In this document: piece by piece, positions 11,547-33,763 of the stretch | How positions within the stretch are numbered: position 1 is the first letter of the stretch | Layout: each line of letters begins with the position of its first letter | Source of the DNA: Alphaproteobacteria bacterium HGW-Alphaproteobacteria-6 | GTDB lineage: Bacteria > Pseudomonadota > Alphaproteobacteria > Rhodobacterales > Rhodobacteraceae | DNA length: 37,076 nucleotides | Assembly (NCBI GenBank): GCA_002841115.1 | Contig: PHEC01000019.1 | Coordinates: 1 to 37,076, forward strand | Direction: 5' to 3' | Notes under the pieces: model-generated | Databases searched by the model: none | The model's input: the letters and a program-made list of their open reading frames with translations, nothing else | What the model was told of the DNA's origin: nothing | Program-made: the position numbers and the translations under genes

Positions 11547-11671
11547 GCGGTGCAGTTCTTGACAGTTTCAGTGCGTTTCCGGTAACTGGAGCCATGGGGA
11601 TCCGCGAGCTCCCCACGAGGCGCCAGCCGAAGATCGTGTTCCTGTTCAACCCCGGCGACGGAGGAACGCAC

Positions 11672-18954: not shown

Positions 18955-20295
18955 TCAGGTGGCAAGGTGTTCAAGCGGAAGGCGCACCCGAGCCTCGAAG
19001 CCATCCGCAGCGCCGGATCTGGGCGAGGCGAGCGTCAGCACGGCTCCGGTCCGTCTGGCGATGGCGGCCGCGATGAAGAGGCCAAGGCCGCTGCCCTGCG
19101 CCAAGGGATCGCCGCGCTGAAACCGCTCGGTCAGCCGGGCAAGGCGGTCCGGGGGCACGACCGGCCCGTCATTGGCGACGATCAACTCGCCCCCGGCCGT
19201 CAGCGTCACAGCGACCGGCCGCCCCGGGCTGCCATGGCGCAGCGCATTCTCCACAAGGTTGCGACACAGGATGCCAAGCGCATCGGGATCGAGCGGCGAC
19301 AGCACCGGCGCTGCGGGCAGGCGCAGCGCGATGTCCGGCGTATCCGTCCCGCGTGCCATGTCCTCGATCACGATCCGCACCGCGATCCGCAGGTCGGATG
19401 GATGGTCCGACTGCAATCGCCCGCCCTCGGCGCGCGCAAGCTGCATCAGGCGCTCGGTCCGGCGGGTCAGCCGCTTCAGCGTCTCTTCGATATCGCGCGC
19501 CCGCGCGGCGGCCGCCGCATCGGCGGTTTCCGACCTCAGGCGCTGGGCCTGCGCGATTGCGCCGGCCAGCGGCGTGCGCAATTCGTGCGCGGCATTGGCG
19601 GCAAAGCTCCGCTCTGCCTCGAAGGCCTCGCGCAGCCTTGAAAGCAGGCTGTTCAAGGTCTCGGCCAGCGGTCGGATTTCCAGGGGCAACTCGTCGGTTG
19701 GCACCGCCGAGAGATCCTGCGCATTGCGCGCCCCCAGAGTTTCGCGGAACCGACGCAGGGGATCAAGGCTCAGGCGGACGGCAAACACGATCGCCAGCAG
19801 CGCGACCGGAATGACGATCAGCAGCGGCAGGCCGAGGCCGAACTGAATCTCGCGCGCGACCGATGCGCGATGATCGAGCGGTTCGGCGACGGTGATGCGG
19901 ATCGTCCCCTGCAGGGCCGCGTCGCTGTAAAGCCGATGGGTCGTGGTCTGGCGAAATCCCGGCCCGTCGTAGGGCGGGAAGGTGGCCGGATCGGCGGCAT
20001 GGGATTGCAGCAGGATACGCGCCTCGGCATCGCGCACCACATAGGTGAAGAACTCGTCATGCGCGCGGATCGGCGCAAGCCGTTGCGTCACCCCCTGATC
20101 CTCGCGCCCGACGATATCGGTCACGGCCAGCGGCAGGATGCGCTCCGCGGTCTCTCGCAGGGCGCTGTCGAAAACCTCGTCCATCTCGTCGCGGACGATC
20201 ACGGCGGTGATCGTCGCGGCGGCGAGCCAGAGGACCGTCAGCACCAGGCCGAGCGACAGGCCGAGCCGCGCCTGAAGGCTGGCGGGCCACCTCAT
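18955..20295 (-). CDS. Sensor histidine kinase, QseC/BasS-like
   Basis: This 446-residue kinase has two membrane spans (about residues 8-30 and 150-172) enclosing a periplasmic sensor domain. After a HAMP region come the phospho-accepting histidine in AANAAHELRTPLAGA, the N box NLVENALRHG and the G box GSGLGLFIAAAIARR. The ATG at 20295 overlaps the response regulator stop in the ATGA pattern. The family signals through OmpR-type regulators and senses metal ions, cationic compounds or small molecules. Its neighbours (PepSY protein, ferric-reductase-like protein, acidic secreted protein, metal ATPase) suggest a metal or redox signal. Confidence 0.9.
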   Translation of the reverse strand: MRWPASLQARLGLSLGLVLTVLWLAAATITAVIVRDEMDEVFDSALRETAERILPLAVTDIVGREDQGVTQRLAPIRAHDEFFTYVVRDAEARILLQSHAADPATFPPYDGPGFRQTTTHRLYSDAALQGTIRITVAEPLDHRASVAREIQFGLGLPLLIVIPVALLAIVFAVRLSLDPLRRFRETLGARNAQDLSAVPTDELPLEIRPLAETLNSLLSRLREAFEAERSFAANAAHELRTPLAGAIAQAQRLRSETADAAAAARARDIEETLKRLTRRTERLMQLARAEGGRLQSDHPSDLRIAVRIVIEDMARGTDTPDIALRLPAAPVLSPLDPDALGILCRNLVENALRHGSPGRPVAVTLTAGGELIVANDGPVVPPDRLARLTERFQRGDPLAQGSGLGLFIAAAIARRTGAVLTLASPRSGAADGFEARVRLPLEHLAT

Positions 20296-20951
20296 GGCCT
20301 GCCCAGCCGGTAGCCCATGCCGCGCTCGGTCTCGATCACCGCGCTTCCCAGTTTCTTGCGCAGCCGGCTGACATGGACCTCGATGGTGTTGCTCTCGACT
20401 TCCGTCTCGAAGGCATAAAGCTTTTCCTCCAGTTGCGCCTTGGACAGAAGCTGACCGGGGCGCGACAGGAAGGCCTCGAACAGCGCCCATTCGCGCGCCG
20501 TCAGCTGGACCGGCCTCCCATCGCGGTGGATGCTGCGCGCGGCAAGGTCGATCTCCAGCGGCCCGTGGCTGACGATCGGGTTCGGGTTGCCGCTGTAGCG
20601 CCGCGCGACCGAGCCGATCCGGGCCGACAACTCGGCCAGGTCGAAGGGTTTCACCAGGTAGTCGTCGGCCCCTGCGTTCAGCCCCTCTATCCGGTCCGAC
20701 ACCTGGTCGAGCGCGGTCAGGATGATGACCGGCGTCACGTCGCCCCGCGCGCGCAGGCGCTTCAGGAACCCGATGCCGCGACCATCGGGCAGCATCAGGT
20801 CAAGCAGGATCAGGTCGTAGGACGTGGCGCCCAGTGCGTCGCCCGCCGCATCCAGCCGTGTGACCCAGTCCACCGACTGGCCGTCGCCGGCGATCTGGTC
20901 GCGCACCGCGGCGCCCAGAACCGTGTCGTCCTCGATCAGCAGGATGCGCAT
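20292..20951 (-). CDS. OmpR-family response regulator, QseB/BasR-like
   Basis: This 219-residue regulator has the acidic pocket LIEDD, the phospho-acceptor aspartate in YDLILLDLMLPDG, the conserved lysine in DYLVKPFDLAEL, and a C-terminal winged helix ending VSRLRKKLGSAVIETERGMGYRLG. MRILLIED at 20951 is the natural start. It precedes and overlaps the kinase gene. An inverted copy of the CTGACG-N5-CTGAAGCG site lies 77 bp upstream, suggesting autoregulation, and the same site fronts the two divergent or downstream units. Confidence 0.92.
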   Translation of the reverse strand: MRILLIEDDTVLGAAVRDQIAGDGQSVDWVTRLDAAGDALGATSYDLILLDLMLPDGRGIGFLKRLRARGDVTPVIILTALDQVSDRIEGLNAGADDYLVKPFDLAELSARIGSVARRYSGNPNPIVSHGPLEIDLAARSIHRDGRPVQLTAREWALFEAFLSRPGQLLSKAQLEEKLYAFETEVESNTIEVHVSRLRKKLGSAVIETERGMGYRLGRP

Positions 20952-20997
20952 GGCTGGTCCCGTTTCCTTCCCCGATGACCCTCGATGATCCGCCGGG

Positions 20998-21016
20998 CTG
21001 ACGCGAAGCTGAAGCG
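20998..21016 (+). promoter_or_regulatory. Candidate response-regulator site 1 (PepSY promoter)
   Basis: CTGACG-CGAAG-CTGAAGCG: two CTGA half-sites spaced 11 bp, as OmpR-family dimers require. It points towards the PepSY gene, whose ATG is 82 bp downstream. Confidence 0.65.
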
Positions 21017-21027
21017 GGCCTGCGCGC

Positions 21028-21046
21028 CGCTTCAGGCTGTCGTCAG
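21028..21046 (-). promoter_or_regulatory. Candidate response-regulator site 2 (autoregulation)
   Basis: On the minus strand this reads CTGACG-ACAGC-CTGAAGCG, identical to site 1 in all 14 fixed positions but facing the response regulator gene, whose ATG is 77 bp away. Sites 1 and 2 form one large inverted repeat in the divergent promoter. Confidence 0.65.
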
Positions 21047-21097
21047 CTTCGCCGCGCATGACATGCATCAAGATGGCCGCATCAAGGAGTTTGGCCG

Positions 21098-21412
21098 ATG
21101 AAGAAGACATTGACAATTCTTGGCTTTCTCGCGGTCTTGCCGGCGGGCATGGCCCTGGCCGACGATGACTGCTTCGTGCCGATGGCCGACTGGCAGCCGC
21201 GGGATGCCGTTCAGCGCCTGGCCGACGACAAGGGCTGGACCGTGCGCCGCATCAAGATCGACGATGGCTGCTACGAGATCGACGGTCGCGACGCCGAGGG
21301 GCGCCGGATCGAGGTGACGGTCCATCCCGCCACGCTGCGGGTGATCGAGGTCGAATACGAGGACGACGACGATCGGCCGATCCGGAAGCGCGGGACCGGC
21401 AGCGATGACTGA
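21098..21412 (+). CDS. Secreted PepSY-domain protein
   Basis: This 104-residue protein has a signal peptide (MKKTLTILGFLAVLPAGMALA, cleavage about residue 21) and a single PepSY domain: MADWQPRDAVQRLADDKGW, then VRRIKIDDGCYEIDGRDAEG and an RVIEVEYEDDDD tail. Two cysteines in the mature protein (DDDCFVP and DDGCYEI) may form a disulfide. Small PepSY proteins of this type are often targets of QseBC/BasRS-like systems and lie beside membrane cytochromes or reductases. The acidic tail (EYEDDDD) recalls the poly-aspartate protein further on. Its 3' end overlaps the next gene by 8 bp. Confidence 0.88.
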   Translation: MKKTLTILGFLAVLPAGMALADDDCFVPMADWQPRDAVQRLADDKGWTVRRIKIDDGCYEIDGRDAEGRRIEVTVHPATLRVIEVEYEDDDDRPIRKRGTGSDD

Positions 21413-22805
21413 TATCGTTGACCGCCCAGAGGGCGCCGGCCGGGCGCCGGGCCGTCGGTCTGCAAACGGGAGGCCCGCCAACCGGGGGTCCGCCAACTGG
21501 GCTCCCGCAAACTGGGCTCCTGCCGCGGACAGTATCCTGAATTCGACGGGGCCCTTCGGGGTGATGCTGACCTGCATGCTGGTCGGCATGCTCGGGCTTG
21601 TCACTTACGCGCCCTACGGGTTTGACGCGGCCTTCGGCATTGCCGTCGGGGCCGCGGCCGTCGTCGCGATGAGCCTGACCCTGATCCTTGCCGCACGCCC
21701 GCGCCTGCTGGAGCCGTTGTTCGGCGGTCTCGACAAGATGTACCGGGTTCACAAGTGGCTGGGCATTTCGGCGCTGATCCTGATGATCCTGCACGATCAG
21801 GTCGAGCCCGACTTCGAGCGCTCGGTCCGCGAGACCGGGCTGGGCGAACTAGCCAGCGAGGCGGGCGAGATTGCCTTCAACGCGCTGCTTGCGCTGATCG
21901 CGATCAGCTGGTTCCGGCGGTTGCCGCTGATCCGGCTGGAGATCCCCTATCAGCTCTGGCGCTTCAGCCATCGCTTCATGGGCGTCCTGTTCGCCATCAT
22001 CGTGTTTCACCAGTTCTTCGTCGATCTGCCGGCCGGGGTCGATCCGACGCTGGGGCTGCTACTGAACGGTTTCGGCCTCGCCGGCGTGGCTGCCTGGGTC
22101 CATACCGAATTCGTCGCCCCGCGCCTGCGGCGCCGGGAGTTCACGGTCAGCGGCATCAGCCGGCAGGGCGATACCACCACGGTGACGCTTTGCCCCGTGG
22201 GGCGGGCGATGCGCTGGCGGCCGGGGCAGTTCGCCTTTGTCCGCGCGCCCGAGGCAGGATTGTCCGAGCCGCATCCCTTCACCATTGCCGGCGCACCGCG
22301 CGCGGATGGCACGCTGAGCCTGTCGATCCGGGCGCTTGGCGGCTGGACCCGGCGCCTGCCCGACGCGCTGCGCGAGGGGATGAGCGTGCAGCTCGAAGGC
22401 CCCTATGGGCGGTTCGACTTCCGCAAGGGCGGGGCAAGGCAGATCTGGCTGGCGGGCGGTATCGGCATCACGCCGTTCCTTGCCTGGGCCGAGAGCCTGA
22501 CCGAGGCAGAGCGGCGCGCCATCCACCTTGTCCATTGTGTCCGCACGCCCGAAGAGGCGATCGGGTCGGAGATCCTGAAGGCAGCGGCCGGGCGCAACCC
22601 GCGGTTCAGCTATCAGGTGGTCGTGACCGCGCGCGATGGTCGCCTGACGGCCGAGCGGCTGATCGGGTCGACGCCTTTTACCGTCAGCGATGCCGATCTG
22701 TGGTTCTGCGGCCCGACCGGCCTGAAGGACGGGATCCTCAAGCGGCTGAAGGCGCTGGGCCAGGCACCGCGACGGGTGCGCTTCGAGCATTTCGAATTTG
22801 CCTGA
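21405..22805 (+). CDS. Ferric-reductase-like transmembrane flavoprotein (FRE/NOX type)
   Basis: This 466-residue protein combines a membrane domain with histidines on adjacent helices (VHKWLGISALILMILHDQ and FSHRFMGVLFAIIVFHQFF, likely two b-type haem ligand pairs) and a cytoplasmic FNR-like reductase: RWRPGQFAFV, HPFTIAGAP for FAD, WLAGGIGITPFLAWAESL and LWFCGPTGL for NAD(P)H. It should pass electrons from cytoplasmic NAD(P)H across the membrane to an external acceptor such as Fe(III). The N-terminal 45 residues are low-complexity and encoded by four 15-bp tandem repeats. It is co-transcribed with the PepSY gene. Confidence 0.88.
   Translation: MTDIVDRPEGAGRAPGRRSANGRPANRGSANWAPANWAPAADSILNSTGPFGVMLTCMLVGMLGLVTYAPYGFDAAFGIAVGAAAVVAMSLTLILAARPRLLEPLFGGLDKMYRVHKWLGISALILMILHDQVEPDFERSVRETGLGELASEAGEIAFNALLALIAISWFRRLPLIRLEIPYQLWRFSHRFMGVLFAIIVFHQFFVDLPAGVDPTLGLLLNGFGLAGVAAWVHTEFVAPRLRRREFTVSGISRQGDTTTVTLCPVGRAMRWRPGQFAFVRAPEAGLSEPHPFTIAGAPRADGTLSLSIRALGGWTRRLPDALREGMSVQLEGPYGRFDFRKGGARQIWLAGGIGITPFLAWAESLTEAERRAIHLVHCVRTPEEAIGSEILKAAAGRNPRFSYQVVVTARDGRLTAERLIGSTPFTVSDADLWFCGPTGLKDGILKRLKALGQAPRRVRFEHFEFA
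21458..21517 (+). repeat. Four 15-bp tandem repeats inside a coding region
   Basis: Four degenerate 15-bp units (for example GTCCGCCAACTGGGC and TCCCGCAAACTGGGC) encode a repeating five-residue pattern with ANW/ANR in the N-terminal tail of the ferric-reductase-like protein. In-frame repeats of this type can change copy number without breaking the gene. Confidence 0.75.
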
Positions 22806-22986
22806 GGCAGGGCCCGTCAGCCTGGCGCGCAGGGCTGGCACTGTCCCGCGCCCCCCCTTCCGGCCCCACCTTTCCTTCGGGGCCTTTTCTTCCTGACGGC
22901 AAGCTGAAGCGGGAATCGCCGGGCCGTCAGCAAGCCCTCAGGTCGGAGCCGCAGATTGATCCGAGCAGTCCAAAGGAGACCCCGCC
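22806..22986. promoter_or_regulatory. Promoter region of the poly-Asp/DUF2271/ApbE operon
   Basis: This 181-bp gap follows the reductase gene. It holds GGCCCC...GGGGCC-type inverted repeats and a T-run near 22857-22892 that could end the upstream transcript (CCGGCCCCACC, then GGGGCCTTTTCTTCC at 22879-22893). The third response-regulator site follows at 22893-22911 and the ribosome binding site AAAGGAG at about 22972-22978. Confidence 0.5.
22893..22911 (+). promoter_or_regulatory. Candidate response-regulator site 3
   Basis: CTGACG-GCAAG-CTGAAGCG repeats the site found twice at 20998-21046, in plus orientation and 76 bp from the poly-Asp gene start. The nearly equal distances (76, 77, 82 bp) argue for a common promoter architecture. 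Confidence 0.65.
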
Positions 22987-23385
22987 ATGCGCAAGACCCT
23001 CACGCTTCTCGTCGCCTCCACGGCGTTGACCGCCGCCATCGGCTGGCCCGTCTGGAGCGCGATGCACACGCCCGAAGGCGGCAGCCCGCGACCCTTTGCG
23101 GCGCTCTTCAAGGACGGCGCGCGGGCGCTGCCCTTCGTCCTTGCAAGCGACGATGACGACGATGACGACCGCAGCTATCGCAAGGGGGCGCGGCGTGGTC
23201 ACGATGACGACGATGATTGCGACGACGACGACTGCGACGACGATGACGATGATGATGATGATGATGATGACGACGACGGCCGCCGCCGCGGTGGGGTCGG
23301 CAATCCCGCGCCCGCCGTCACCGTCGCGCCGCCGCAGAACGGGCTTTTCGGAACCGGCGCCCCGCCGCAGGTCCAGGTGAACTGA
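22987..23385 (+). CDS. Secreted poly-aspartate protein
   Basis: This 132-residue protein has a signal peptide (MRKTLTLLVASTALTAAIGW...) and a mature part dominated by aspartate: D55-61, D73-77, D79-82 and D84-97, with cysteines at 78 and 83 and a histidine at 72 set inside the runs. The C-terminus is Pro/Gly/Gln-rich. Such a peptide would be extremely acidic and is well suited to binding divalent or trivalent metal ions in the periplasm or at the surface; this is inference, and I know no named family. The ATG follows AAAGGAG. GAC/GAT codons alternate, so the run is not a simple one-triplet expansion. It heads the operon with the DUF2271, reductase, ApbE and ATPase genes. Confidence 0.75.
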   Translation: MRKTLTLLVASTALTAAIGWPVWSAMHTPEGGSPRPFAALFKDGARALPFVLASDDDDDDDRSYRKGARRGHDDDDDCDDDDCDDDDDDDDDDDDDDGRRRGGVGNPAPAVTVAPPQNGLFGTGAPPQVQVN

Positions 23386-23460
23386 GTCTTGCTGCGACGC
23401 GGCGGAATTGTCCGCCTCGCGCGTCCTTCCCTCGACCATCAGTCCCGGAGACCTCACAAG

Positions 23461-23931
23461 ATGAAATCGCTTCTCTCGACACTTGCGCTGACCACCGCGC
23501 TGACGCTTCCCGGCCTCGCCACGGCACGCCCGGTCACGCTCACCACGACCCTCAACACCTATGGCGGCGATGGCGCCTATCTCGCGCTTTACGTCACCGA
23601 CGCCTCGGGCGCCTATGCGGGCAGCCTGTGGATGGCTGGCGGAAAGTCCAAATACTACAAGCACCTGACCGATTGGTACCGCGCCACGGGCGGCGACACC
23701 GGCCAGGTCAACGGCATCACCGGCGCCAGCGTTGGTGCGGGCCGGACGCTCAAGATCACGCTCGACCTTGCAGACGCGCTTTTTGACGCGGGCTATACGC
23801 TGCACGTCGACGCCGCCGTCGAGGACATGCGCGACAGCCCGGCCGAGGTTGCGGTGCCGTTGACGACGAAAGGCGCCGGAACGCCCCTGCGCGGGCGTCG
23901 CTACGTCGCCAGCGTCGCCTACGACATGTGA
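23461..23931 (+). CDS. DUF2271 protein with flavinylation motif
   Basis: This 156-residue secreted protein has a signal peptide (cleavage near TARPV, residue 22) and a DUF2271 domain (TTTLNTYGGDGAYLALYVTD, SLWMAGGKSKYYKHLTDWYR). Residues 84-90 read NGITGAS, with D79 just before. This fits the [S/T]GA[T/S] motif to which ApbE attaches FMN through a phosphoester bond on the last residue, here Ser90. DUF2271 genes are known to associate with PepSY and ApbE genes. The protein is therefore a probable periplasmic FMN-carrying electron carrier between the membrane reductase and an external acceptor. It lies 75 bp after the poly-Asp gene and 7 bp before the reductase gene. Confidence 0.85.
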   Translation: MKSLLSTLALTTALTLPGLATARPVTLTTTLNTYGGDGAYLALYVTDASGAYAGSLWMAGGKSKYYKHLTDWYRATGGDTGQVNGITGASVGAGRTLKITLDLADALFDAGYTLHVDAAVEDMRDSPAEVAVPLTTKGAGTPLRGRRYVASVAYDM

Positions 23932-23938
23932 GGGGGCC

Positions 23939-26143
23939 ATGATCCGCGCCCTGCATCGCTGGCCGGGTCTGCTGGCCCTGGCCCTGGTGACGGTGCTGGC
24001 GCTCAGCGGCGCGGCGCTGTCGGTCTTCCCCGCGGCCGAGCGGCTGGCCGCGCCGCAGGCCGGGGCGGGCCTGAGCGTCGCCACCCTCGCCTCCCGCATC
24101 CGGTCGGTCTATCCGGGCGTCGAGCAGATCCGCCGCGCGCCGTCGGGGCGGATCACCGCCTACTGGTTCGACCAGGGCGCGCCCGGTGCGGCCGTCATCG
24201 ATCCCGCGACCGGGCAGGGCGTGGCCTCTGCCGATCCCGATCCGGTCCGTCGCTGGCTGACCAACCTGCACCGCTCGCTGTTTCTGGGGGACGGGGGCCG
24301 GATCGCCATGGCCATGGGGGCGGCAATGTTGCTGGTCCTGTCACTGTCCGGCGCGGCGCTGGTCGCGCGGCGGGCCGGTGGCTGGCGGCACTGGTTCGCG
24401 CGCTCGCGCGGGCCGCTGGCCGGGCGGCTGCATGTCGAGATCGCCCGGATCGCGGTGATCGGCCTTGTTTTCTCGTCTGCCACCGCCCTGTGGATGACCG
24501 CCTCCACCTTCGATCTCTTGCCCGACGGCGGCGCGGCGCCTGCCATGCCGGCCGAGGTCAGCGGTGAGGCAGGGTTCGCTCTCGATCAGATGGCCGTCTT
24601 GCGACAGACGCGCGTGACCGGGCTGCGCGAGCTGAGCTTTCCCTATCCGGGCGATACGACCGATGTCTTCACGCTGAAGACCGACCGGGGCACCGGCTAT
24701 CTCGATCAGGGAAACGGGGCGCTCCTGGCCTGGGCCGACCTGACCGGGTGGGAGCGGGTCTCGGAAACCATCACCATGCTGCACACCGGACAGGGTGCTG
24801 CGACGCTCGGCCTCGTGCTCGGGTTGATGGCGCTTGGCGTGCCGGCGATGGGCGCGACAGGTGTGCTGACCTGGGCCGCCGGGCGGCGCGGACGGCCGCG
24901 CATCCGGGGCAATCAGGCCGCGGGGCGGGCCGAGACGATCCTGCTGGTCGGCAGCGAGGGCGGCAGCACCTGGGGATTCGCCGCGACGCTGCACGCCGCG
25001 CTGACACAGGCCGGGCAGAGCGTCCATGTCGGGCCGATGTCGGCCTTCGCACCAGACCGCTACGCCGCGGCCCGCCGGATCGTCCTGCTGGCCGCGACCT
25101 ATGGCGACGGCGCGGCACCGGCCTCGGCCAGGGGCTTTCTCGACCGGCTGGCCGCCGCCGATCGTGCGCCCGGCGCGGCCCTTGCCGTGCTAGGCTTCGG
25201 CGATCGCGGCTTTGCCGACTACTGCGGCTTTGCCAGGGCCGTCGCGGCGGCGGCAAGGGCGAAGGGCTGGGACGAACTCCTGCCCTTCGACACGGTCGAC
25301 TGCCAGTCGCCGCAGGATTTCGCGCGCTGGGGCCGCGCCCTTGGCCAGGCGCTGGGGATCGACCTGAGGCTTTCGCACCAGCCGGTTCAGCCGCGGACCG
25401 GGACGCTGACCCTGATCTCGCGCCGCGACTACGGCGCCGGGGTGCAGGCCCCGACCGCGATCCTGCGCTTTGCCCTGCCGCGTGTCCCGCTCTGGCAGCG
25501 GCTGACCGGGGCGGGCTTTGCCCGGTTCGAGGCCGGCGACCTGATCGGCATCCTGCCCGCGGGATCACCCCTGCCGCGCCTCTACTCGCTTGCCTCGGCG
25601 CGCCGCGACGGCTTCGTCGAGATCGTGGTCAGGAAGCATCCCGGCGGTCTTTGCTCGGGCCAGTTGACCGCGCTGGAACCGGGCGACACGGTGAGCGCCT
25701 TCCTGCGCCGCAATCCGGGGTTCCGGCCGGGCCGGGGCCGCGCGGCCCTGATCCTGATCGGGGCGGGAACCGGCATCGGGCCGCTGGCCGGGATCATCCG
25801 CGGCAATGCGCGACGGCCGATCCACCTTTTCTTCGGAATGCGCCACCCCGACAGTGACTTTCTCTATGACGCGGAACTGCCAGCCTGGCAGCAGGAGGGC
25901 CGTCTGGCCCGGCTGGTCACGGCGGTCTCGCGCGGGGCGCGGCCGCATTACGTCCAGGATGCGCTTGGCGGCGATGCGGCCGAAGTTGCCCGGCTGATCG
26001 CTGCCGGCGCGCGGGTGATGGTCTGCGGCGGCCGCGACATGGCCGCGGGCGTGGCCGATGCGCTGGCCGAGATCCTCGCGCCCGCCGGGATGACGCCGGC
26101 GACGCTGAAGGCAGAGGGGCGCTATGTCGAGGATGTCTATTGA
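23939..26143 (+). CDS. PepSY-TM / flavodoxin / NADPH-reductase fusion
   Basis: This 734-residue protein has three parts. Residues 1-325 are a PepSY-associated membrane domain (MIRALHRWPGLLALALV, LTNLHRSLFLGDGGR, histidines facing the membrane, final span ATGVLTWAAGRR). Residues 335-485 are flavodoxin-like, with FMN loops VGSEGGSTWGFAATLH and LAATYGDGAAPASARGF. Residues 490-734 are an FNR module like sulfite reductase or cytochrome P450 reductase (RLYSLASA for FAD, HPGGLCSGQL, GAGTGIGPLAGIIRG for NADPH, C-terminus GRYVEDVY). It should carry electrons from NADPH through FAD and FMN across the membrane, probably to the flavinylated DUF2271 protein. It overlaps apbE. Confidence 0.88.
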   Translation: MIRALHRWPGLLALALVTVLALSGAALSVFPAAERLAAPQAGAGLSVATLASRIRSVYPGVEQIRRAPSGRITAYWFDQGAPGAAVIDPATGQGVASADPDPVRRWLTNLHRSLFLGDGGRIAMAMGAAMLLVLSLSGAALVARRAGGWRHWFARSRGPLAGRLHVEIARIAVIGLVFSSATALWMTASTFDLLPDGGAAPAMPAEVSGEAGFALDQMAVLRQTRVTGLRELSFPYPGDTTDVFTLKTDRGTGYLDQGNGALLAWADLTGWERVSETITMLHTGQGAATLGLVLGLMALGVPAMGATGVLTWAAGRRGRPRIRGNQAAGRAETILLVGSEGGSTWGFAATLHAALTQAGQSVHVGPMSAFAPDRYAAARRIVLLAATYGDGAAPASARGFLDRLAAADRAPGAALAVLGFGDRGFADYCGFARAVAAAARAKGWDELLPFDTVDCQSPQDFARWGRALGQALGIDLRLSHQPVQPRTGTLTLISRRDYGAGVQAPTAILRFALPRVPLWQRLTGAGFARFEAGDLIGILPAGSPLPRLYSLASARRDGFVEIVVRKHPGGLCSGQLTALEPGDTVSAFLRRNPGFRPGRGRAALILIGAGTGIGPLAGIIRGNARRPIHLFFGMRHPDSDFLYDAELPAWQQEGRLARLVTAVSRGARPHYVQDALGGDAAEVARLIAAGARVMVCGGRDMAAGVADALAEILAPAGMTPATLKAEGRYVEDVY

Positions 26144-27103
26144 GCCGGTGCGCCATGCGCTGAACGGCGCGACCATGGGCACGCGCTGGTCCGCGCTGTT
26201 CTTCGTGCGGCCGGGGTTCGACCCCGAGCCGGTCCGCGCCGCGCTGCAAGCGGCGGTGGACGAGGTGGATGCGCAGATGTCGACCTGGATGCCGGGCAGC
26301 GACCTGATGCAGCTGAACGCCGCGCCCGTGGGGGATGGGTCGCGGTGCCAGAAGGGCTGCGGGCGGTGCTGGCCCTGGGTCTGGCGATCGGTCGCGCCTC
26401 GGGCGGGGCCTTCGACATCGGCATGGGCGATGCGGTGACAGCCTGGGGTTTCGGGCCCGAGGCCGCCCTGCCGGGGCGTATCCGCAGCGCGATGGCGGCA
26501 TCCCGCAGGCCGGCGCATGAGGTGCTGGAAATCGGGGCGGGCTGGGTCCGCAAGTCGGCGCCGCTTGTGCTTGACCTCAACGGCATCGCCAAGGGATACG
26601 GCGTGGACCGGCTGGCCGAGACGCTGCTGGACCACGGGATCGGCGCCGGCCTCGTCGGTATCGACGGCGAGATGCGCGCGCTCGGGCAGCGACCCGACGC
26701 GACGCCCTGGACCATCGCGGTCGAGGCGCCGGACCCCGAAGGCCGCGCGCCCCATTCCATCCTGACGCTGCACGATGCCGCCGTGGCGACCTCGGGCGAT
26801 TATCGCCACTGGGTCGAGGTGCAGGGACGGCGCCTGTCGCATACGATGGATCCCGGCCGGGGCGCGCCGGTGCTGGCCTCGCCGGCCTCGGTCACCGTCG
26901 TCGCGCCAAGCTGTGCCGAGGCCGACGCCTGGGCAACCGCGCTGATGGTGCTGGGCCCCGACCGGGGTGCGACACTTGCGCGCGAACGCGGGCTCGACGC
27001 GCTGTTCCTGCTGCGCGATGATGACGGGCGCGCAAGGGGCGTCGGGGTCGGGCAGCTTCTGTCCGCAAAGCCCGCGGAAACCGACCCGGCCAAGGGGAAT
27101 TGA
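26124..27103 (+). pseudogene. apbE: FAD:protein FMN transferase ApbE, broken by a one-base frameshift
   Basis: Two frames together make a normal ApbE. The first (from ATG 26124) gives NGATMGTRW, DEVDAQMSTWMPGSDLMQLN. The second (to 27103) gives SGGAFDIGMGDAVTAWGFGP, LDLNGIAKGYGVDRLA, the AVATSGDYRHW segment and the metal/flavin site HTMDPGRGAPV. They join if one base is added near 26336-26337, where GTG GGG GAT GGG would become GAT TGG GTC GCG and restore VGDWVAVPEGL. Either the gene is inactive or the base call is wrong. The enzyme transfers FMN onto Ser/Thr of exported proteins; the likely target is the DUF2271 protein. There is no obvious signal peptide at the N-terminus. It overlaps the reductase gene by 20 bp. 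Confidence 0.85.
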
Positions 27104-27108
27104 GCGGC

Positions 27109-28983
27109 ATGCACCACACCGGCAAGGACCGCTTCAAGACCGCCATCCTGCTGATCACCGTGGTCGCGCTGTTCACGGGTCTCGGCCTTTCCGTCGCCGG
27201 CAAGGGCGATATCGCGAAGATCGTCTGGCACATAGGGGTGTTGCCTGCCCTCGCCGCCCTTCTGGTCGAGATCCTGCGCAGCATCGGACGCGGCGAGGTC
27301 GGGCTTGATATCGTCGCGGCGCTGTCGATGACCGCGGCCCTGGTCTTCGGCGAGACGCTGGCGGCGGCGGTCGTCGCGGTGATGTATTCCGGCGGCACCT
27401 TTCTTGAAAGCTTCGCCGAAGGCCGCGCCCGGCGCGAGATGCATGGCCTCTTGTCCCGCGTCCCGAGAACCGCGACCCGGCACCGCAACGGCGGGCTTGA
27501 TGAGGTTCCCCTTGACGAGATCGCGCCGGGCGACCGGCTGCTGATCCGGCAAGGCGACGTGGTGCCGGTGGATGGCACCACGGCATCCGACACCGCCTTC
27601 CTCGACACCTCGGCGCTGACCGGCGAGTCGTTGCCCCGGCGCCTGGCGCGCGGCGCCGAGGCGATGAGCGGATCGACCAACGCGGGCGAGGCCTTCGACC
27701 TGACCGCCACGCGCCGCGCGGCCGAAAGCACCTATGCCGGCATCGTCCGGCTGGTCGAGGCGGCGCAACGCTCCAAGGCGCCGATGTCGCGGCTGGCCGA
27801 CCGCTGGTCGCTGGGCTTCCTGGCGGTCACCGTCGCCATTGCCTTCGCCGCCTGGTGGTTCACCGGCGACCCGATCCGGGCGGTCGCCGTGCTGGTCGTC
27901 GCCACACCCTGTCCGCTGATCCTGGCGGTTCCGGTGGCGCTGGTCGCAGGTCTGTCGCGGGCGGCGCATTTCGGCGTGCTGATCAAGGGCGCGGGGCCGC
28001 TTGAGACGATGGCGCGCATCCGCACGCTGATCCTTGACAAGACCGGCACCCTGACCGACGGGCGCCCGCAGATCGTGTCGATCGACAGCGCGGGCAGTCT
28101 GGGCGAAGACGAGATCCTGCGCCTTGCCGCAGCCCTTGATCAGGCGTCGAAACATCCGGTCGCGCAGGCCATCGTCGCCGCCGCGAAGGCGCGGGGCCTG
28201 ACGCTGCCGGTGCCGTCGGAGGTGGCCGAGATTCCCGGCGAAGGGGTCCTGGGCAGCGTCGCTGGCCGCGCGGTCATCGTTGGCGGCGACGGTTTCGTCG
28301 CCAGCCGGGTCGGGCGGCCGTCCGGCGACCACCCGGCCATGGCCGCCGGATCGGTTCTTGTCGCCGTGGCGGTCGATGGCCATATGGCGGGGCATCTGGT
28401 GATGTCCGACCCGCTGCGCGAGGGCGCCGGCGCCATGCTGGCCGGGCTGCGAAACAAGGGGATCGGTCGCATCCTGCTTGCCACCGGCGACCGGACCGAG
28501 GTGGCAGAGCGGGTGACCGAAGGGCTTGGCCTTGACGGGCTGCGCGCCGGCCTGACCCCCGACCAGAAGGTCCTGCTGGTCCTGACCGAGCGCAAGAACG
28601 GCCCGGTGATGATGGTCGGCGACGGGGTGAACGACGCGCCCGCGCTGGCCGCCGCCGATGTCGGCGTCGCCATGGGCGCGCGCGGTGCCGCCGCCTCGGC
28701 CGAGGCTTCCGACGTGGTGCTGCTGGTCGACCGGATCGACCGGCTTGGCCCGGGGATCGAGATCGCGCGGGCCTCGCGGCGGATCGCCGTCGAAAGCGTC
28801 GTCGCCGGCATCGGCCTTTCGGTCCTCGGCATGATCGCGGCCGCCTTCGGCTACATCACCCCGGTGCAGGGCGCGCTGCTGCAAGAGGTGATCGACGTCG
28901 CCGTGATCCTGAACGCGCTGCGCGCCCTGCGGATCGCACCGCATGAGCCCGCAGCACCGGCCCCCCTGGCCACCGGTGCCTGA
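27109..28983 (+). CDS. P1B-type heavy-metal-translocating ATPase
   Basis: This protein of about 624 residues has no N-terminal metal-binding (HMA) domain. It shows the actuator motif DTSALTGES, the transmembrane metal site ATPCPLILAVPVAL, the phosphorylation motif LDKTGTLTDGRP, the P1B mark SKHPVAQAI and the hinge GDGVNDAPALAAADVGVAMG. The membrane motif is TPC rather than CPC, which excludes ordinary Cu+ and Zn2+/Cd2+ types and is closest to the TPC group reported for Ni/Fe exporters; substrate assignment is tentative. ATG 27109 follows AAGGGG; a TTG at 27100 is the alternative. The stop codon coincides with the end of an IS3-like element, so the extreme C-terminus may be altered. Confidence 0.9.
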   Translation: MHHTGKDRFKTAILLITVVALFTGLGLSVAGKGDIAKIVWHIGVLPALAALLVEILRSIGRGEVGLDIVAALSMTAALVFGETLAAAVVAVMYSGGTFLESFAEGRARREMHGLLSRVPRTATRHRNGGLDEVPLDEIAPGDRLLIRQGDVVPVDGTTASDTAFLDTSALTGESLPRRLARGAEAMSGSTNAGEAFDLTATRRAAESTYAGIVRLVEAAQRSKAPMSRLADRWSLGFLAVTVAIAFAAWWFTGDPIRAVAVLVVATPCPLILAVPVALVAGLSRAAHFGVLIKGAGPLETMARIRTLILDKTGTLTDGRPQIVSIDSAGSLGEDEILRLAAALDQASKHPVAQAIVAAAKARGLTLPVPSEVAEIPGEGVLGSVAGRAVIVGGDGFVASRVGRPSGDHPAMAAGSVLVAVAVDGHMAGHLVMSDPLREGAGAMLAGLRNKGIGRILLATGDRTEVAERVTEGLGLDGLRAGLTPDQKVLLVLTERKNGPVMMVGDGVNDAPALAAADVGVAMGARGAAASAEASDVVLLVDRIDRLGPGIEIARASRRIAVESVVAGIGLSVLGMIAAAFGYITPVQGALLQEVIDVAVILNALRALRIAPHEPAAPAPLATGA

Positions 28984-29802
28984 GGAGGCCCCAATTTTCG
29001 GGACACTGAGCTACGCCTGATCGACGGCTGAGAAGGACGGATCGAGTGGCTGGAAAGAGGAAGCGGTACAGCGCGGCGTTCAAGGCGAAGGTGGCGCTGG
29101 AGGCGATCAGTGCGCGGAGAGTAGCTCGGACTGCAAGATCGACCGGCATTACATCGCCCCCGGCAAGCCGACCCGGAATGCCTTCATCGAGAGCTTTAAC
29201 AGGCTGCTGAAAAAGAAGCTTGGCCAGTGTCTGGCGGGGAAACTGTTCCCTTCCCACCATCCGATCCCGGCGCCGAGGGACGCGCCCGACCCTGGGGGGG
29301 CGCCTTGGGACGCTGGGGCTGCGGTGCTTTATCGCAACCAGACCACTCCAACCGTCGAGCAATTTGCATGGTTGCCATGCGCCCTCCCGCCGGGAGGGTC
29401 GGGCGCGGCCCGGGCTGGTCGCCCGGGCCCGGACTTGTGGGGGGCGTGGCGAGGAACGGTTTTCCGATTTGGTGGTTGAAAACGGATGGGTGCGTGACTT
29501 TTTCAACAGCCTGTTAACGGTCGGCTACGCGACGAGCTGCTGAACGAGACGCTATTCCCGTCCCTGCACCATGCCCGCGTCACGCTGGCGGCCTGGCGCA
29601 CGGACTACCACACCGAAGCCCTCATTCCCGTATCGGCTGGCAAACGCCCGCCGTCTTCGCCCAGAGCTTGACCCCGCAACGGGGCCTGACGCTGCGCAAC
29701 CCACAAAGCACCGCGCCAGCCCCCGTTGCTCAACCCGCCCATATGGGCAAAATCAAAACCCGGAGTCTCGCTCACGCTTGATAAAAGTCGGGGGCAACGT
29801 CA
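28981..29802 (+). mobile_element. IS3-family insertion sequence, degenerate
   Basis: The left part encodes the start of an OrfA (VAGKRKRYSAAFKAKVALEA from 29046). After a large deletion near 29115, the OrfB C-terminus follows: DRHYIAPGKPTRNAFIESFN, then, beyond an inserted element, DELLNETLFPSLHHARVTL and, after a frameshift near 29610, PHSRIGWQTPAVFAQSLTPQ and the tail to about 29780. The probable ends are imperfect inverted repeats: TGAGGAGGCCCC at 28981 and, on the other strand, TGACGTTGCCCCC ending at 29802. Most of OrfA and the DDE core are gone. It cannot transpose on its own. Confidence 0.75.
29200..29513. mobile_element. 314-bp MITE-like element with 16-bp inverted ends
   Basis: The ends are CAGGCTGCTGAAAAAG (29200-29215) and its inverse CTTTTTCAACAGCCTG (ending 29513), one mismatch in 16. 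TTAA stands immediately outside both ends (29196-29199 and 29514-29517). Removing the element and one TTAA restores the IS3 OrfB frame (IESFNGRLRDELLNE). It carries no transposase or recognisable gene. The TGTTGAAAAAG-type ends resemble those of several DDE transposon families, so it was probably mobilised in trans. Confidence 0.8.
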
Positions 29803-30502: not shown

Positions 30503-31237
30503 TCAGAAGTAGCTGCGCACCAGGGCGCCCGAGATCAGTGTCCAGCCGTCCGCAACGACGAAGAACGCCAGCTTGAAGGGCAGCGCGACGATCGCCGGCG
30601 GCACCATCATCATGCCCATCGACATCAGCACCGCCGAAACCACCAGATCGATGATCAGGAACGGCAGAAAGATCAGAAACCCGATCTCGAAGGCGCGGGC
30701 GACCTCGGACAGCATGAAGGACGGCACCAGAAGCGACAGCGGCGCCGCCGGATCCTGTGCCAGCGTGGCGGTCTCCGGGCGCAGTGCTGCGAGCGAGGTG
30801 AAGGTGCCGGCATCGGTGCGCGCCGCCATGAAGGTGCGAAACGGGGCGACGGCGCGGGCAAAGGCCTCGGGCAGATCGAGCGTGCCGGCGGCATAGGGCT
30901 GCACCCCCTCGGCCCAGGACGCAAGAAAGACCGGCTCCATGATGAACCAGGTCAGAAACAGCGCCAGCGAGACGATCAGCATGTTGGGCGGCGATTGCTG
31001 CAGCCCGATCGCCTGGCGCAGGATCGACAGAACGGTCACGATGAACGGAAAGCAGGTGACCATCACAGCCAGCCCCGGTGCCAGGCTGAGCACGGTGATC
31101 AGGCCGATCAGCAGCATCGACTGCCCGCCGAGACTGCCGCCGCCGCCCAGCGTCAGCGTCAGATCCTGTGCCGCCGCCGGCCCTGCCTGAACCAGCAGCA
31201 GGGCCAGAACGGCCGCGATCACCGGCGCGCGTCCCAA
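30503..31237 (-). CDS. fliP: Flagellar export apparatus protein FliP
   Basis: This 244-residue protein has an N-terminal signal-like segment and four membrane helices. LAPGLAVMVTCFPFIVTVLSILRQAIG, SPPNMLIVSLALFLTWFIM, and in the C-terminal half FMLSEVARAFEIGFLIFLPFLIIDLVV and SMGMMMVPP are FliP signatures. With FliQ and FliR it forms the export gate inside the basal body. It follows fliN by 3 bp and ends the minus-strand flagellar operon within the window; fliQ, fliR and flhA are not present here. Confidence 0.95.
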   Translation of the reverse strand: MGRAPVIAAVLALLLVQAGPAAAQDLTLTLGGGGSLGGQSMLLIGLITVLSLAPGLAVMVTCFPFIVTVLSILRQAIGLQQSPPNMLIVSLALFLTWFIMEPVFLASWAEGVQPYAAGTLDLPEAFARAVAPFRTFMAARTDAGTFTSLAALRPETATLAQDPAAPLSLLVPSFMLSEVARAFEIGFLIFLPFLIIDLVVSAVLMSMGMMMVPPAIVALPFKLAFFVVADGWTLISGALVRSYF

Positions 31238-31240
31238 TCG

Positions 31241-31525
31241 TCAGAACCCGCGACCGAGATCGACGACCTCGGTCAGCCGGACGGCAAGCTGACCGGCCGG
31301 CTCGCCGTCAAGCTCGGTCAGTTCACCCCGTGCGATCAGGCGGTCGCCGACATAAAGCTCGACCGGGTCATCGACCCGCCGGTCAAGCGGCAGCACCGCG
31401 TCACGGCGCAGCCGAAGCAGGTCGCGCACCAGCGGCCGGGCGCGGCCGACCGAGATCGTGATCTCGATCGGAACCTGGGTGAAGGGATTGTTCTCGGCCC
31501 GCTCCGGGCCCGGCTGGTCATCCAT
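31241..31525 (-). CDS. fliN: Flagellar motor switch protein FliN
   Basis: This 94-residue protein consists of a single SpoA domain: PIEITISVGRARPLVRDLL, then VDDPVELYVGDRLIARGEL and RLTEVVDLG. FliN forms the cytoplasmic C-ring below FliM and FliG. Its start overlaps the end of the FliH-like gene by 8 bp. The size is at the short end for FliN, lacking the usual N-terminal tail. Confidence 0.92.
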   Translation of the reverse strand: MDDQPGPERAENNPFTQVPIEITISVGRARPLVRDLLRLRRDAVLPLDRRVDDPVELYVGDRLIARGELTELDGEPAGQLAVRLTEVVDLGRGF

Positions 31526-32117
31526 TCGCGATATCCCTTTCCTTTTCGATCTGGAAGAATGCCGAAACCGCGGCGGCGATGGTCGCGATCACCCCGTCGA
31601 GATCGACGCGCGATTCGGCGGCACCGAAGCGCAGATAGACCTGACCCTCGCCAAGCGAAGGCTCGCCGCAGAAGGTCATCGGGATGGCGGCCTGGCCGAT
31701 CACGATCGCCTCGATCACCGCGCGGTTGGCCGGATTGGCGGTGACGGTGACCGGGGCGTCGGACAGGCCTTCGGCGACCGGGCGCAACTGTTCCAGCACC
31801 ATCTGGCCCAGCGCCTCGCGGGCGATCGCCGGCAGCACCTTGGTCACCATGTCGTGCAACAATGGCTCCAGCGCCCGCAGCACATGGCTGCGCGCCTCGT
31901 GATAGCTGAAGGCCATGTCCTGAAGGTTGCGGCCAAGATCGGCGCGCAGTCGCGCCACCTCTTCGGTCTGCGCCGCTGCGGCATCGTCCCAGCCGGCGGT
32001 ATAACCCTGCTCGAAGGCGGCAAGCCGGTTCTCCTCCAACTCGCCCCGCGCCAGTGTCACCGCGGCGCCCGATCCGTCGATATCCTCGAACACCTCGAGC
32101 CGGAGCGGACGCGACAT
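31518..32117 (-). CDS. fliH: FliH-like flagellar assembly protein
   Basis: This 199-residue soluble protein has a glutamate/glutamine-rich helical N-terminal part (ENRLAAFEQGYTAGWDDAAAA) and a C-terminal segment (VLPAIAREALGQMVLEQLRP, VTVTANPANRAVIEAIV, VDLDGVIATIAAAVSAFFQ). The FEQGYxxGW motif and placement between fliF and fliN are as in FliH, which binds the ATPase FliI and regulates export. FliH sequences are poorly conserved, so the name rests partly on position. The ATG at 32117 shares a base with the fliF stop. Confidence 0.8.
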   Translation of the reverse strand: MSRPLRLEVFEDIDGSGAAVTLARGELEENRLAAFEQGYTAGWDDAAAAQTEEVARLRADLGRNLQDMAFSYHEARSHVLRALEPLLHDMVTKVLPAIAREALGQMVLEQLRPVAEGLSDAPVTVTANPANRAVIEAIVIGQAAIPMTFCGEPSLGEGQVYLRFGAAESRVDLDGVIATIAAAVSAFFQIEKERDIANG

Positions 32118-33763
32118 CAGGCCTTCTCCTCTTCGGGGTCTTCCATCCAGTTGCGCAGGATCTCGACAGTTTCTTCCTGACGTTCGCTGATCAGGCGACG
32201 CAGCCGGGTGACCGGATCGGCGCCGTCCGTCCCGTCGGCCGAACCGGAAGCGCCACCTGCCGCGTCGCCGCCAGAGACCAGCGCCAGGCCTGCCGGGACA
32301 TAGTCGCCGTCATCGATCTCGCCGGTCAGTGCCGCCGGAACCGCGCCCGGCGGAGCCGGCAGTTCGGCCAGCCGCGCCGGGCGCGTGGTCAGGACCGGGC
32401 GCACCACGAAAAGGCCGAGCACCAGGGTGACGATGGCCAGGACCGCAAGCTGGACCAACCGCATCACGTCGAGATGCAGCCCCGCCAGAAGCGGCGCGCC
32501 GGCGCTGCCGGCAAGTTCGGCGACCGGCTTGAAGGGCATTGACCTGATGGTGATGACATCGCCGCGCCCGGCGTCGAACCCGACCGCGGCGGCGACCAGA
32601 TCCTGCAGGTCCTGCAACTCGGCCTCGCCCCGCGGCTGCTCGGTCAGGGCGCCGGCGGCATCGGCCACCTGCACCGCATCGACCAGAACCGCCACGGTCA
32701 GCCGGCGCACCGCTCCGGGGTTGCGCAACAGCTCGCGCGTGGTCTCCGACACCTCGAAGTTGGTCCGCTCGCGGGTTTCGCTCTTGTTGCTTTGCGACTG
32801 CCCGGCACTGCCGCCGGCATCGCCCGCAGGCAGGTTCGAGGCGACGGTCACCGCATTGCGGCCGCTGTCGCTGGCCGTCGTCGACTGTTCGAGCGTGTCG
32901 GTCGAGATCGCGACCCGACCCTCGGGATCAAAGCGCCGTTCGGTGATCGCCTCGCGCTCGGTCACGGTATCCACCGAAACCTCGACGATGGCATTGCCGT
33001 AGCCGACCCGCGCCTCGAGCAGCCGCTCGACGTTCTGGCGAAGTTGTCCGGCGCGGTCGGTTCCGGCCGGCGCCATCGCATCGTCGCCGGAAATCACCAG
33101 GCCGCTTTCGCCGTCGATCACCGACACGTCTTCGGGCGACATCCCCGAGACCGCCGAGGCCACCAGGAATTTCAGCGCCTTGGCCTGAACCGGAGAGAGG
33201 CCGCCTCCGGCAGTCGCGACGGCAACCGACGCGGTCGGGCGGCTGGTCGCGCGCAACCCTTGCGCCTGCGGCACGGCGACATGCACCCTGGCCGAGCGGA
33301 TCATCGGCAGGGCGCCGATGGTGCGGGCCAGTTCCCCTTCCTTGGCGCGAAGATAGGCGGCGTCGAACATCTGCGACGTGGTGCCGAACCCGGACAGCGA
33401 ATCCAGCAGCTCATAGCCCGCCGCGCTGTTGGCCGGCAGCCCCTCGGCGGCCAGTGTCATGCGCAGCGCGTCGCGGTCTGACGAGGGCACATAGATCGCC
33501 TCGCCGCGCACCTCATAGACGACGCCGCGCTGATCGAGCGCCGTCAGCACCTCACCGGCGCGGTTGCCGTCGAGCCCGGCATAAAGAAGCGCCATCGCCG
33601 GCCGCGATGCGACCCCACCCAGAGCCAGAACGGCCGCAAACATCGCCACCGTGGCCAGCGCGACGATCACCCGGCGCCGGGGGTCGAGGTTTAGCAAGAC
33701 GGCCGTCAGCTGCTGCAACGCATTTCTCCGGTCTGCGGGCTTCTGCCCGATCGCTGCCGCCAT
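32117..33763 (-). CDS. fliF: Flagellar MS-ring protein FliF
   Basis: This 548-residue protein has an N-terminal membrane span (about 30-55), the ring-building motifs YEVRGEAIYVPSSDRDALRM, LLDSLSGFGTTSQMFDAAYLR, ELARTIGALPMIRSARVHVA, a long central domain, a second span near 445-465 (LVQLAVLAIVTLVLGLFVV) and the FliG-binding tail ETVEILRNWMEDPEEE. It forms the membrane ring on which the flagellum is built. It is the first gene of the minus-strand operon; its promoter region with a CtrA-like box is shared with fliL. Confidence 0.95.
   Translation of the reverse strand: MAAAIGQKPADRRNALQQLTAVLLNLDPRRRVIVALATVAMFAAVLALGGVASRPAMALLYAGLDGNRAGEVLTALDQRGVVYEVRGEAIYVPSSDRDALRMTLAAEGLPANSAAGYELLDSLSGFGTTSQMFDAAYLRAKEGELARTIGALPMIRSARVHVAVPQAQGLRATSRPTASVAVATAGGGLSPVQAKALKFLVASAVSGMSPEDVSVIDGESGLVISGDDAMAPAGTDRAGQLRQNVERLLEARVGYGNAIVEVSVDTVTEREAITERRFDPEGRVAISTDTLEQSTTASDSGRNAVTVASNLPAGDAGGSAGQSQSNKSETRERTNFEVSETTRELLRNPGAVRRLTVAVLVDAVQVADAAGALTEQPRGEAELQDLQDLVAAAVGFDAGRGDVITIRSMPFKPVAELAGSAGAPLLAGLHLDVMRLVQLAVLAIVTLVLGLFVVRPVLTTRPARLAELPAPPGAVPAALTGEIDDGDYVPAGLALVSGGDAAGGASGSADGTDGADPVTRLRRLISERQEETVEILRNWMEDPEEEKA

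Follow-up and report, generated by a model that had tools for sequence, protein, structure and literature searches.

A PepSY/DUF2271 flavin cluster with its own regulator, a predicted operator and optional metal exporters: a possible iron-handling module of proteobacteria

Why would a bacterium keep a two-component system (TCS), a chain of flavin-dependent redox proteins and a metal-transporting ATPase side by side, and which metal, if any, would they serve? This question is raised by positions 18955–28983 of a 37,076-nucleotide stretch of DNA (the window, meaning the whole stretch) that makes up contig PHEC01000019.1 of Alphaproteobacteria bacterium HGW-Alphaproteobacteria-6 (Rhodobacterales, Rhodobacteraceae; assembly GCA_002841115.1), a draft genome of 288 contigs and 87% completeness. 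An earlier, sequence-only reading had described the cluster as nine genes acting as one unit in metal reduction and export, among them a fusion of PepSY_TM, flavodoxin and nicotinamide adenine dinucleotide phosphate (NADPH) reductase domains (hereafter the fusion). The answer that we favour, with slightly less than even confidence, is an extracytoplasmic redox module that centres on iron, may include Fe(II) efflux as an optional arm and is often carried on conjugative plasmids.

All nine genes were found in the window, and Pfam names eight of them, the poly-Asp open reading frame (ORF) being without any family match. The kinase and regulator genes run leftward and the other seven rightward, with the kinase overlapping the end of the regulator gene; the best kinase start is 20295, not 20490. 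The features are as follows.

18955–20295, minus strand: sensor histidine kinase, QseC/PmrB-like, with HisKA/HATPase domains and RETAER in its periplasmic part (Pfam, NCBIfam)
20292–20951, minus strand: OmpR-family response regulator, PmrA/QseB-like (Pfam; the NCBIfam scores shown all lie below the curated cut-offs)
20998–21046, strandless: divergent promoter region with two boxes CTGAMN6CTGAMG without mismatch, at 20998–21014 (plus) and 21030–21046 (minus) (pattern scan)
21098–21412, plus strand: small secreted PepSY_2 protein, DbfQ/PA2658-like by position (Pfam)
21405–22805, plus strand: ferric-reductase-like flavoprotein with Ferric_reduct, FAD and NAD domains (Pfam)
22893–22909, plus strand: third exact box CTGAMN6CTGAMG, upstream of the second unit (pattern scan)
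22987–23385, plus strand: acidic secreted protein (the poly-Asp ORF), longest D/E run 14, with a conserved C-terminal tail
23461–23931, plus strand: DUF2271 protein with NGITGASVGAG, in which TGAS is the predicted attachment motif for flavin mononucleotide (FMN) (Pfam, alignment)
23939–26143, plus strand: fusion of PepSY_TM, flavodoxin and CysJ-like NADPH reductase (NAD_binding) (Pfam)
26124–27103, plus strand: ApbE, a flavin adenine dinucleotide (FAD):protein FMN transferase, split by a frameshift in the assembly (Pfam, relatives)
27100–28983, plus strand: P1B-type ATPase with a TPCPL motif, P1B-5-like, without hemerythrin domain; start at 27100 (TTG) or 27109 (ATG)
28984–29245, plus strand: transposase-like debris, IS3-type on a by-eye reading of the frames, at the position of VIT1 in relatives

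Two samples of relatives were used to ask how constant this arrangement is. The close set holds the best 80 of 223 relatives found, which are 80 loci from named genomes, several of them near-identical (at 99% nucleotide identity the fusion genes fall into 63 clusters); counts were taken over the 68 loci with at least 6 kilobases (kb) upstream or the 68 with at least 4 kb downstream, the others being left out. The wider sample was built from 292 genomes drawn evenly from the order, of which 46 carried the fusion at 51 places, and genes were counted at the 36 places with at least 7 kb upstream and at least 5 kb downstream; both numbers include the window. Aligned protein sets include duplicate loci. 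Gene order was kept across the 80 close loci and in the taxon-wide sample, where the kinase was present in 33 of the 36 loci, the regulator in 33, PepSY_2 in 30, DUF2271 in 34 and ApbE in all 36. On these counts, the core consists of the first eight gene slots (kinase, regulator, PepSY_2, ferric-reductase-like protein, acidic protein, DUF2271, fusion and ApbE) and extends over alpha-, beta- and gammaproteobacteria. The ferric reductase (35 of 68 close and 8 of 36 wider-sample loci) and a cytochrome b561 (22 and 15, respectively) were mutually exclusive across the 80 close loci and the 51 places, which suggests that they are interchangeable electron donors.

The window's own copy is damaged. 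Its ApbE lies in two different frames (N part 26124–26438, C part 26345–27103), while in relatives both parts are in register by tblastn coordinates and a full ORF is present in 74 of 80 (median 326 amino acids). As the genome is a draft, the frameshift may be either an assembly error or a real mutation. No VIT match was found by Pfam scan in the window, where the cluster ends at 28983 and is followed, at the position of VIT1 in relatives, by frames that contain transposase-like pieces by eye; the cluster thus appears to be cut at its 3' end, and the missing neighbour can be named, by comparison with relatives, as a VIT1-family transporter. The view of nine genes as a unit therefore holds for gene content and order, though not for an ApbE in one frame or for a complete 3' end. 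Because VIT1 is lacking and ApbE is split, the window copy may not work as a whole, and it is the lineage, not this copy with its broken ApbE, that we would count as having a working PepSY-like flavinylation system. The same genome holds a further, distant ApbE on another contig (C165) and a further VIT1-type gene on a third (C267).

A sign of a single unit is a sequence that the two promoter regions of the window have in common. The pattern CTGAMN6CTGAMG, picked after viewing these two promoters, has three exact sites in the window, all of them at the two promoters, against a mean of 0.05 in 20 shuffles; with one mismatch there are six sites against 2.25. In the close set the box (one mismatch allowed) was present at the first promoter in 75/75 loci and at the second in 74/75, with 195 other matches in 1.5 Mb. 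Among the 46 wider-sample loci whose regulator is divergent, 45 had it at the first promoter; at the second it stood in 17/17, 13/21 and 1/8 loci with falling identity. The box persists down to roughly 44–50% identity; a looser form, scored without shuffle control, lies in the matching region of Klebsiella, Shinella, Rhizobium, Paraburkholderia and Methylocella loci, and a few divergent loci have CTTAAG or CTTAC half-sites. Across the window's whole genome the long form of the box had only two exact sites, both belonging to the cluster, and with two mismatches 12 matches against 4 for the control. The box at both promoters supports the prediction of one co-regulated unit, in agreement with the sequence-only reading. 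It resembles the operator of the Fe(II)-responsive regulator BqsR, reported as TTAAGN6TTAAG (PMC12666569, PMC4682146, PMC12714742), in its pentamer-N6-pentamer layout, with different pentamers. The best NCBIfam match of the window's regulator is PmrA, far below the cut-off of that family. A scan of 20900–23500 for sigma-70 promoters and intrinsic terminators found nothing; a hairpin suspected by eye before the second unit also failed the terminator scan, and no terminator is claimed.

The electron path proposed by the sequence-only reading is likewise supported, by Pfam domains, the FMN motif, conserved histidines and published flavinylation parallels (PMC8238504). Of 108 aligned DUF2271 proteins (79 distinct), 104 have TGAS and the other 4 SGAS as their motif, and [ST]GA[ST]-type motifs in DUF2271 are reported to take FMN elsewhere (Méheust et al. 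2021, PMC8238504). In the fusion, which stands beside ApbE and DUF2271, the PepSY_TM domain (PF03929) matches at E 2.5e-29; H6, H111 and H282 are kept in 107/107 aligned proteins and H165 in 106/107. A profile search placed its N part on the PepSY_TM reductase FoxB (7abw; E 6.8e-8, a match strong in the first segment only), with H6, H111 and H282 opposite FoxB histidines. Both sequence and fold relate the C part to CysJ and P450 reductase (model pLDDT, the predicted local distance difference test, 83.7; predicted template-modelling score 0.53). When the model of the entire fusion was compared by Foldseek, the top matches were diflavin reductases (P450 reductase, CysJ, nitric oxide synthase), and FoxB was absent among the best 50 of its 907 matches, so that the FoxB link comes from the profile search only. 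In the ferric-reductase-like protein, H116, H130, H189 and H202 are kept in 43/43 aligned proteins (33 distinct). From family membership, both membrane proteins would be expected to bind heme and to take part in reduction.

The acidic protein shares its slot with another kind of protein. Slot 5, compared in 80 proteins (the window's and 79 relatives'), holds a protein without PepSY marks and with acidic runs of 6–24 residues in 42 loci and a PepSY_2 protein in 38; a separate count over the 80 relatives also gave 38 with PepSY. The printed examples of both kinds share a near-identical tail, NPAPAxTVAPPxNGLFGxGAPPxVQVN, and a strict form of the tail pattern occurred in 80 of the 109 loci searched for it, the 29 misses being 8 among the 80 close loci and 21 beyond. 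The idea of the poly-Asp protein as an independent family was dropped, the PepSY_2 version having the same C-terminal tail; its link to the unit stands, as one of two versions of the slot. The poly-Asp stretch and the PepSY_2 domain thus appear interchangeable in these alignments. Since either part precedes a common tail, both kinds are suggested to do the same job, possibly the holding of a metal, and the tail would dock to a partner. To our knowledge, which here includes no dedicated literature search, such an exchange of a PepSY_2 domain for poly-Asp ahead of a common tail is undescribed. Six loci (L046, L054, L056, L075, L082 and L113) have a secreted protein of about 177 amino acids, without Pfam family, before slot 5.

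Metal enters the argument through the exporters. In the closest named loci the ATPase is followed by a 233-amino-acid gene of the VIT1 family (E 1.3e-67) that matches the plant VIT1 structure 6iu3; its start overlaps the ATPase stop by 4 nucleotides in 44 of the 46 loci with a long ATPase and VIT1. VIT1 (PF01988, iron/manganese) adjoins the cluster in 50 of 68 close loci, including 46 of the 48 with a full-length ATPase. Glutamates of the cluster VIT1 were lined up by eye with those in the metal-binding region of plant VIT1, where they presumably bind the metal. VIT1 was also seen at other positions (L119, L120, L122 and L238, Rhizobium, Shinella, and a Klebsiella plasmid with a 44%-identical fusion). 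In a control over 32 of the 46 fusion-bearing genomes, 40 full-length VIT1 genes were counted, and 13 of them fell within the loci retrieved with the fusion, which make up about 0.6% of the sequence (about 0.69 of 121 Mb, by hand count). The Klebsiella plasmid locus (L179, K. michiganensis) has VIT1 directly after the fusion; no ApbE match was seen within the 26 kb read there.

The window ATPase carries TPCPL, and TPC was found in 55 of 58 aligned ATPases. The TPC motif in the transport helix is linked to the P1B-5 class, of which a C-terminal hemerythrin domain is typical (Nia-like), while SPC marks P1B-4 ATPases. Among the matches listed, orthologues share at least 51% identity, compared with at most 42% for other P1B matches. 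The window protein is 56% identical over 602 amino acids to a hemerythrin-fused ATPase of Sinorhizobium meliloti that we take to be Nia or its orthologue (the record is unannotated and its locus tag unconfirmed). PF01814 (hemerythrin) is absent from the window ATPase and present in the S. meliloti and Methylocella relatives; as the domain is missing, we call the protein P1B-5-like rather than a member of P1B-5. SPC-type P1B ATPases occupy the ATPase position in L066 (13324–15267), L073 (8155–10344) and L054 (13212–14924), as non-orthologous replacements; another SPC-type ATPase lies near the Shinella cluster, and a CPC-type one lies in L120, outside the ATPase slot.

Taken together, VIT1 linkage, the TPC/SPC ATPases and the likeness of the PepSY-TCS to BqsRS of Pseudomonas aeruginosa make iron the probable metal, short of proof; the metal link of the earlier reading is supported, through linkage to exporter families. 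That reading had passed over the lost VIT1 gene, the frameshift in ApbE, the box at both promoters, the exchange of ferric reductase for cytochrome b561 and the plasmids of relatives. Under the iron reading, the kinase and its small PepSY_2 periplasmic accessory would sense a periplasmic metal, probably Fe2+, and the regulator would bind the CTGAM-N6-CTGAMG boxes and switch on the two units. Electrons from NAD(P)H would cross the inner membrane via heme in the fusion and the ferric-reductase-like flavoprotein (cytochrome b561 in other strains) and reach the FMN attached to DUF2271 by ApbE. Iron in the periplasm, which the acidic slot protein perhaps holds, would be kept as soluble Fe(II), and the P1B-5-like ATPase, with VIT1 where present, would pump Fe(II) from the cytoplasm, the net effect being tolerance of iron excess.

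Several observations weigh against this reading. The exporters are optional: in the 36 wider-sample loci VIT1 was linked in 12, any P-type ATPase in 14 and either in 17. The full periplasmic ExxE, the iron motif of BqsS, which is RETAER in the window kinase and is present in 71 of 91 kinases of the closer set, was complete in just 17 of 46 wider-sample kinases, 26 having ExxQ; ExxE was therefore dropped as proof of Fe(II) sensing. In 9 of the 68 close loci all that is left of the ATPase is a fragment. The TPC ATPase is also frequently found by itself, with neither flavin gene nor VIT1 in 20 of 30 orthologue neighbourhoods (two of these are contigs of less than 8 kb). P1B-5 proteins may move nickel, and VIT1 may move manganese. 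The related PepSY-TCS of Vibrio cholerae, DbfQRS, is reported to be unresponsive to iron, and PepSY_TM/DUF2271 clusters elsewhere are reported as tied to iron uptake and induced by iron limitation.

The outcome that the sequence-only reading had named as its refutation, ATPase and poly-Asp genes unlinked to the flavin genes in relatives, did not come about, but the linkage of the ATPase is a matter of degree. The gene is full-length in 48 of 68 close loci, and a TPC ATPase is linked in 9 of 36 wider-sample loci (window included), mostly close relatives: 7/13 at fusion identities of at least 75%, 2/14 at 55–75% and 0/9 below, the corresponding counts for VIT1 being 7/13, 4/14 and 1/9. As the counts vary with fusion identity, export is best described as an option outside the predicted core, commonest in close relatives, and it is mainly there that the ATPase belongs to the unit. 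The neighbourhood count covers L136–L165, from 34 loci fetched; L166 (an ATPase fragment) and three loci of the window's own genome were excluded. Of the ten neighbourhoods that were not bare, six had flavin genes and three had VIT1 and no fusion; because orthologues already known beside the fusion were not fetched again, six of 30 understates the linkage. The tenth (L143, G104:C56) has the TCS, PepSY_2, cytochrome b561 and the ATPase, with no fusion or DUF2271 and only a weak ApbE match; its genome has flavin genes on another contig, C59.

The alternative that survives best, though we consider it unlikely, is reductive iron acquisition, in which the flavin chain would free iron from ferric complexes so that it can be taken up, with exporters added as safety valves in some lineages. 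It agrees with the published reading of PepSY/DUF2271 clusters, where repression by Fur is reported for Shewanella and Caulobacter and 231 clusters are reported to contain TonB receptors (PMC8238504), with the reported induction of DUF2271/PepSY genes by iron limitation in Alteromonas, and with exporters being optional in the wider sample. In the 32 control genomes, however, none of 31 TonB-dependent receptors over the cut-off and none of four FeoB proteins lay in the loci fetched around the fusion, and we therefore moved a little weight from uptake to efflux; 16 of these genomes have no TonB-dependent receptor match and 28 no FeoB_C match. Control by a PmrA/BqsR-type TCS box, and recurrent transporters from families of cytoplasmic metal export, also speak against uptake.

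That the same machine handles another metal (manganese, nickel/cobalt or copper) we regard as improbable. P1B-5 Nia is reported to take both nickel and iron, the Klebsiella locus encodes a VIT1/CCC1 protein whose annotation is manganese homeostasis, and the PepSY_TM protein CrpH is reported as tied to copper; iron is nevertheless the single metal common to the reported substrates of P1B-5, VIT1, FoxB-type reductases and BqsS. Nia of S. meliloti and P1B4 ATPases are reported as Fe(II) exporters, and nia deletion in another S. meliloti strain reportedly left nickel tolerance unchanged. Least probable is an envelope redox or stress module with DbfQRS-like control, MsrQ-like electron supply and an incidental link to metal pumps, for which one could cite the reported response of DbfQRS to outer-membrane stress rather than iron, the placing of MsrQ-like proteins in the ferric-reductase-like family (PMC8238504) and the 19 of 36 wider-sample loci without exporter nearby, but VIT1 is markedly enriched around the cluster, to which it is linked at varying positions and in more than one class, and no methionine-sulfoxide reductase was seen among the flanking families, only part of which were named.

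Several described systems come close to the present cluster. The PepSY-like flavinylation systems of Méheust et al. (2021, PMC8238504) likewise combine a PepSY_TM protein, DUF2271 with [ST]GA[ST] and ApbE; 1077 PepSY-like genes with an NAD-binding domain and 167 clusters with VIT1, 108 of them also with MsrQ-like genes, are reported there. In contrast to the systems described there, the present cluster has a dedicated TCS with its box, two PepSY_2 or acidic secreted proteins, the flavodoxin-CysJ-like fusion and the P1B-5-like ATPase; in the main text of that paper, supplementary tables aside, 'P-type ATPase' is absent and 'two-component' occurs once. BqsRS and DbfQRS, as described, similarly place a TCS beside one or more small PepSY periplasmic proteins, and the PmrA-like regulator, the pentamer repeat with N6 spacer and ExxE in the window kinase are alike; here, however, the half-sites are CTGAM/CTGAMG instead of TTAAG, the second glutamate is not family-wide, and a flavin-reductase cluster adjoins. 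FoxB-type ferrisiderophore reductases (7abw) share the PepSY_TM family and, by profile, three histidines in register, whereas here the domain is fused to its own flavodoxin and NADPH reductase, with no TonB receptor nearby in the 32 genomes. With Nia the window ATPase has the TPC motif in common, but not the C-terminal hemerythrin. The mmf cassette (Tn6048) of IncP-1beta plasmids is also a mobile set of PepSY and TCS genes, on a plasmid that altered growth at different iron levels, a link between mmf and phenotype that is a hypothesis of its authors (PMC4914505); 'DUF2271' and 'ATPase' are absent from the main text of that paper.

Literature searches for the combination, in which subscription journals were barely covered and supplementary files not included, found no paper naming the cluster. 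The claim that it is not a named system hence stands for the combination, which is new as far as our searches reach, and gives way for its parts, since Méheust 2021 already describes the flavin core, and DbfQRS/BqsRS are published cases of the PepSY-TCS module. Flavinylated PepSY/DUF2271 systems have been counted in thousands of genomes (PMC8238504). Because the present cluster has a regulator of its own and a predicted operator, is accompanied by few kinds of metal exporter and travels on plasmids in many relatives, the metal, the signal and the direction of transport are testable in one strain.

The cluster is shared among marine bacteria, often on plasmids. In PLSDB, 97 plasmids carry a relative of the fusion (E up to 1e-50), 23 of them at less than 60% identity. 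Seventy of the 97 are typed as conjugative, and 38 are from Pseudosulfitobacter, those listed being mostly near-duplicates. On a Celeribacter plasmid the cluster lies beside repBC and ends in the ATPase and a 'VIT family protein', and fusion copies at 99% nucleotide identity occur in differently named genera. A bolder proposal, which we put forward as possible though doubtful, is that of a horizontally transferred iron-tolerance determinant: a conjugative-plasmid cluster, inducible by Fe(II), that would join an NADPH-driven flavin chain, by which periplasmic iron is reduced, to the export of Fe(II) through the P1B-5-like ATPase and VIT1, with poly-Asp and PepSY_2 as interchangeable metal-holding modules. 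If so, the cluster would play for iron the part that mobile resistance operons play for mercury, arsenic and copper, and a mobile tolerance of iron would matter for the question of how bacteria in marine sediments deal with Fe(II).

The window's own contig is probably chromosomal or part of a chromid, as argued from the flagellar genes nearby: FliP and FliF genes lie to the right of the cluster at 30503–33763. To its left, at a distance of 5 kb, a ChrB-like protein and a ChrA-type chromate transporter are encoded in tandem at 11594–13860.

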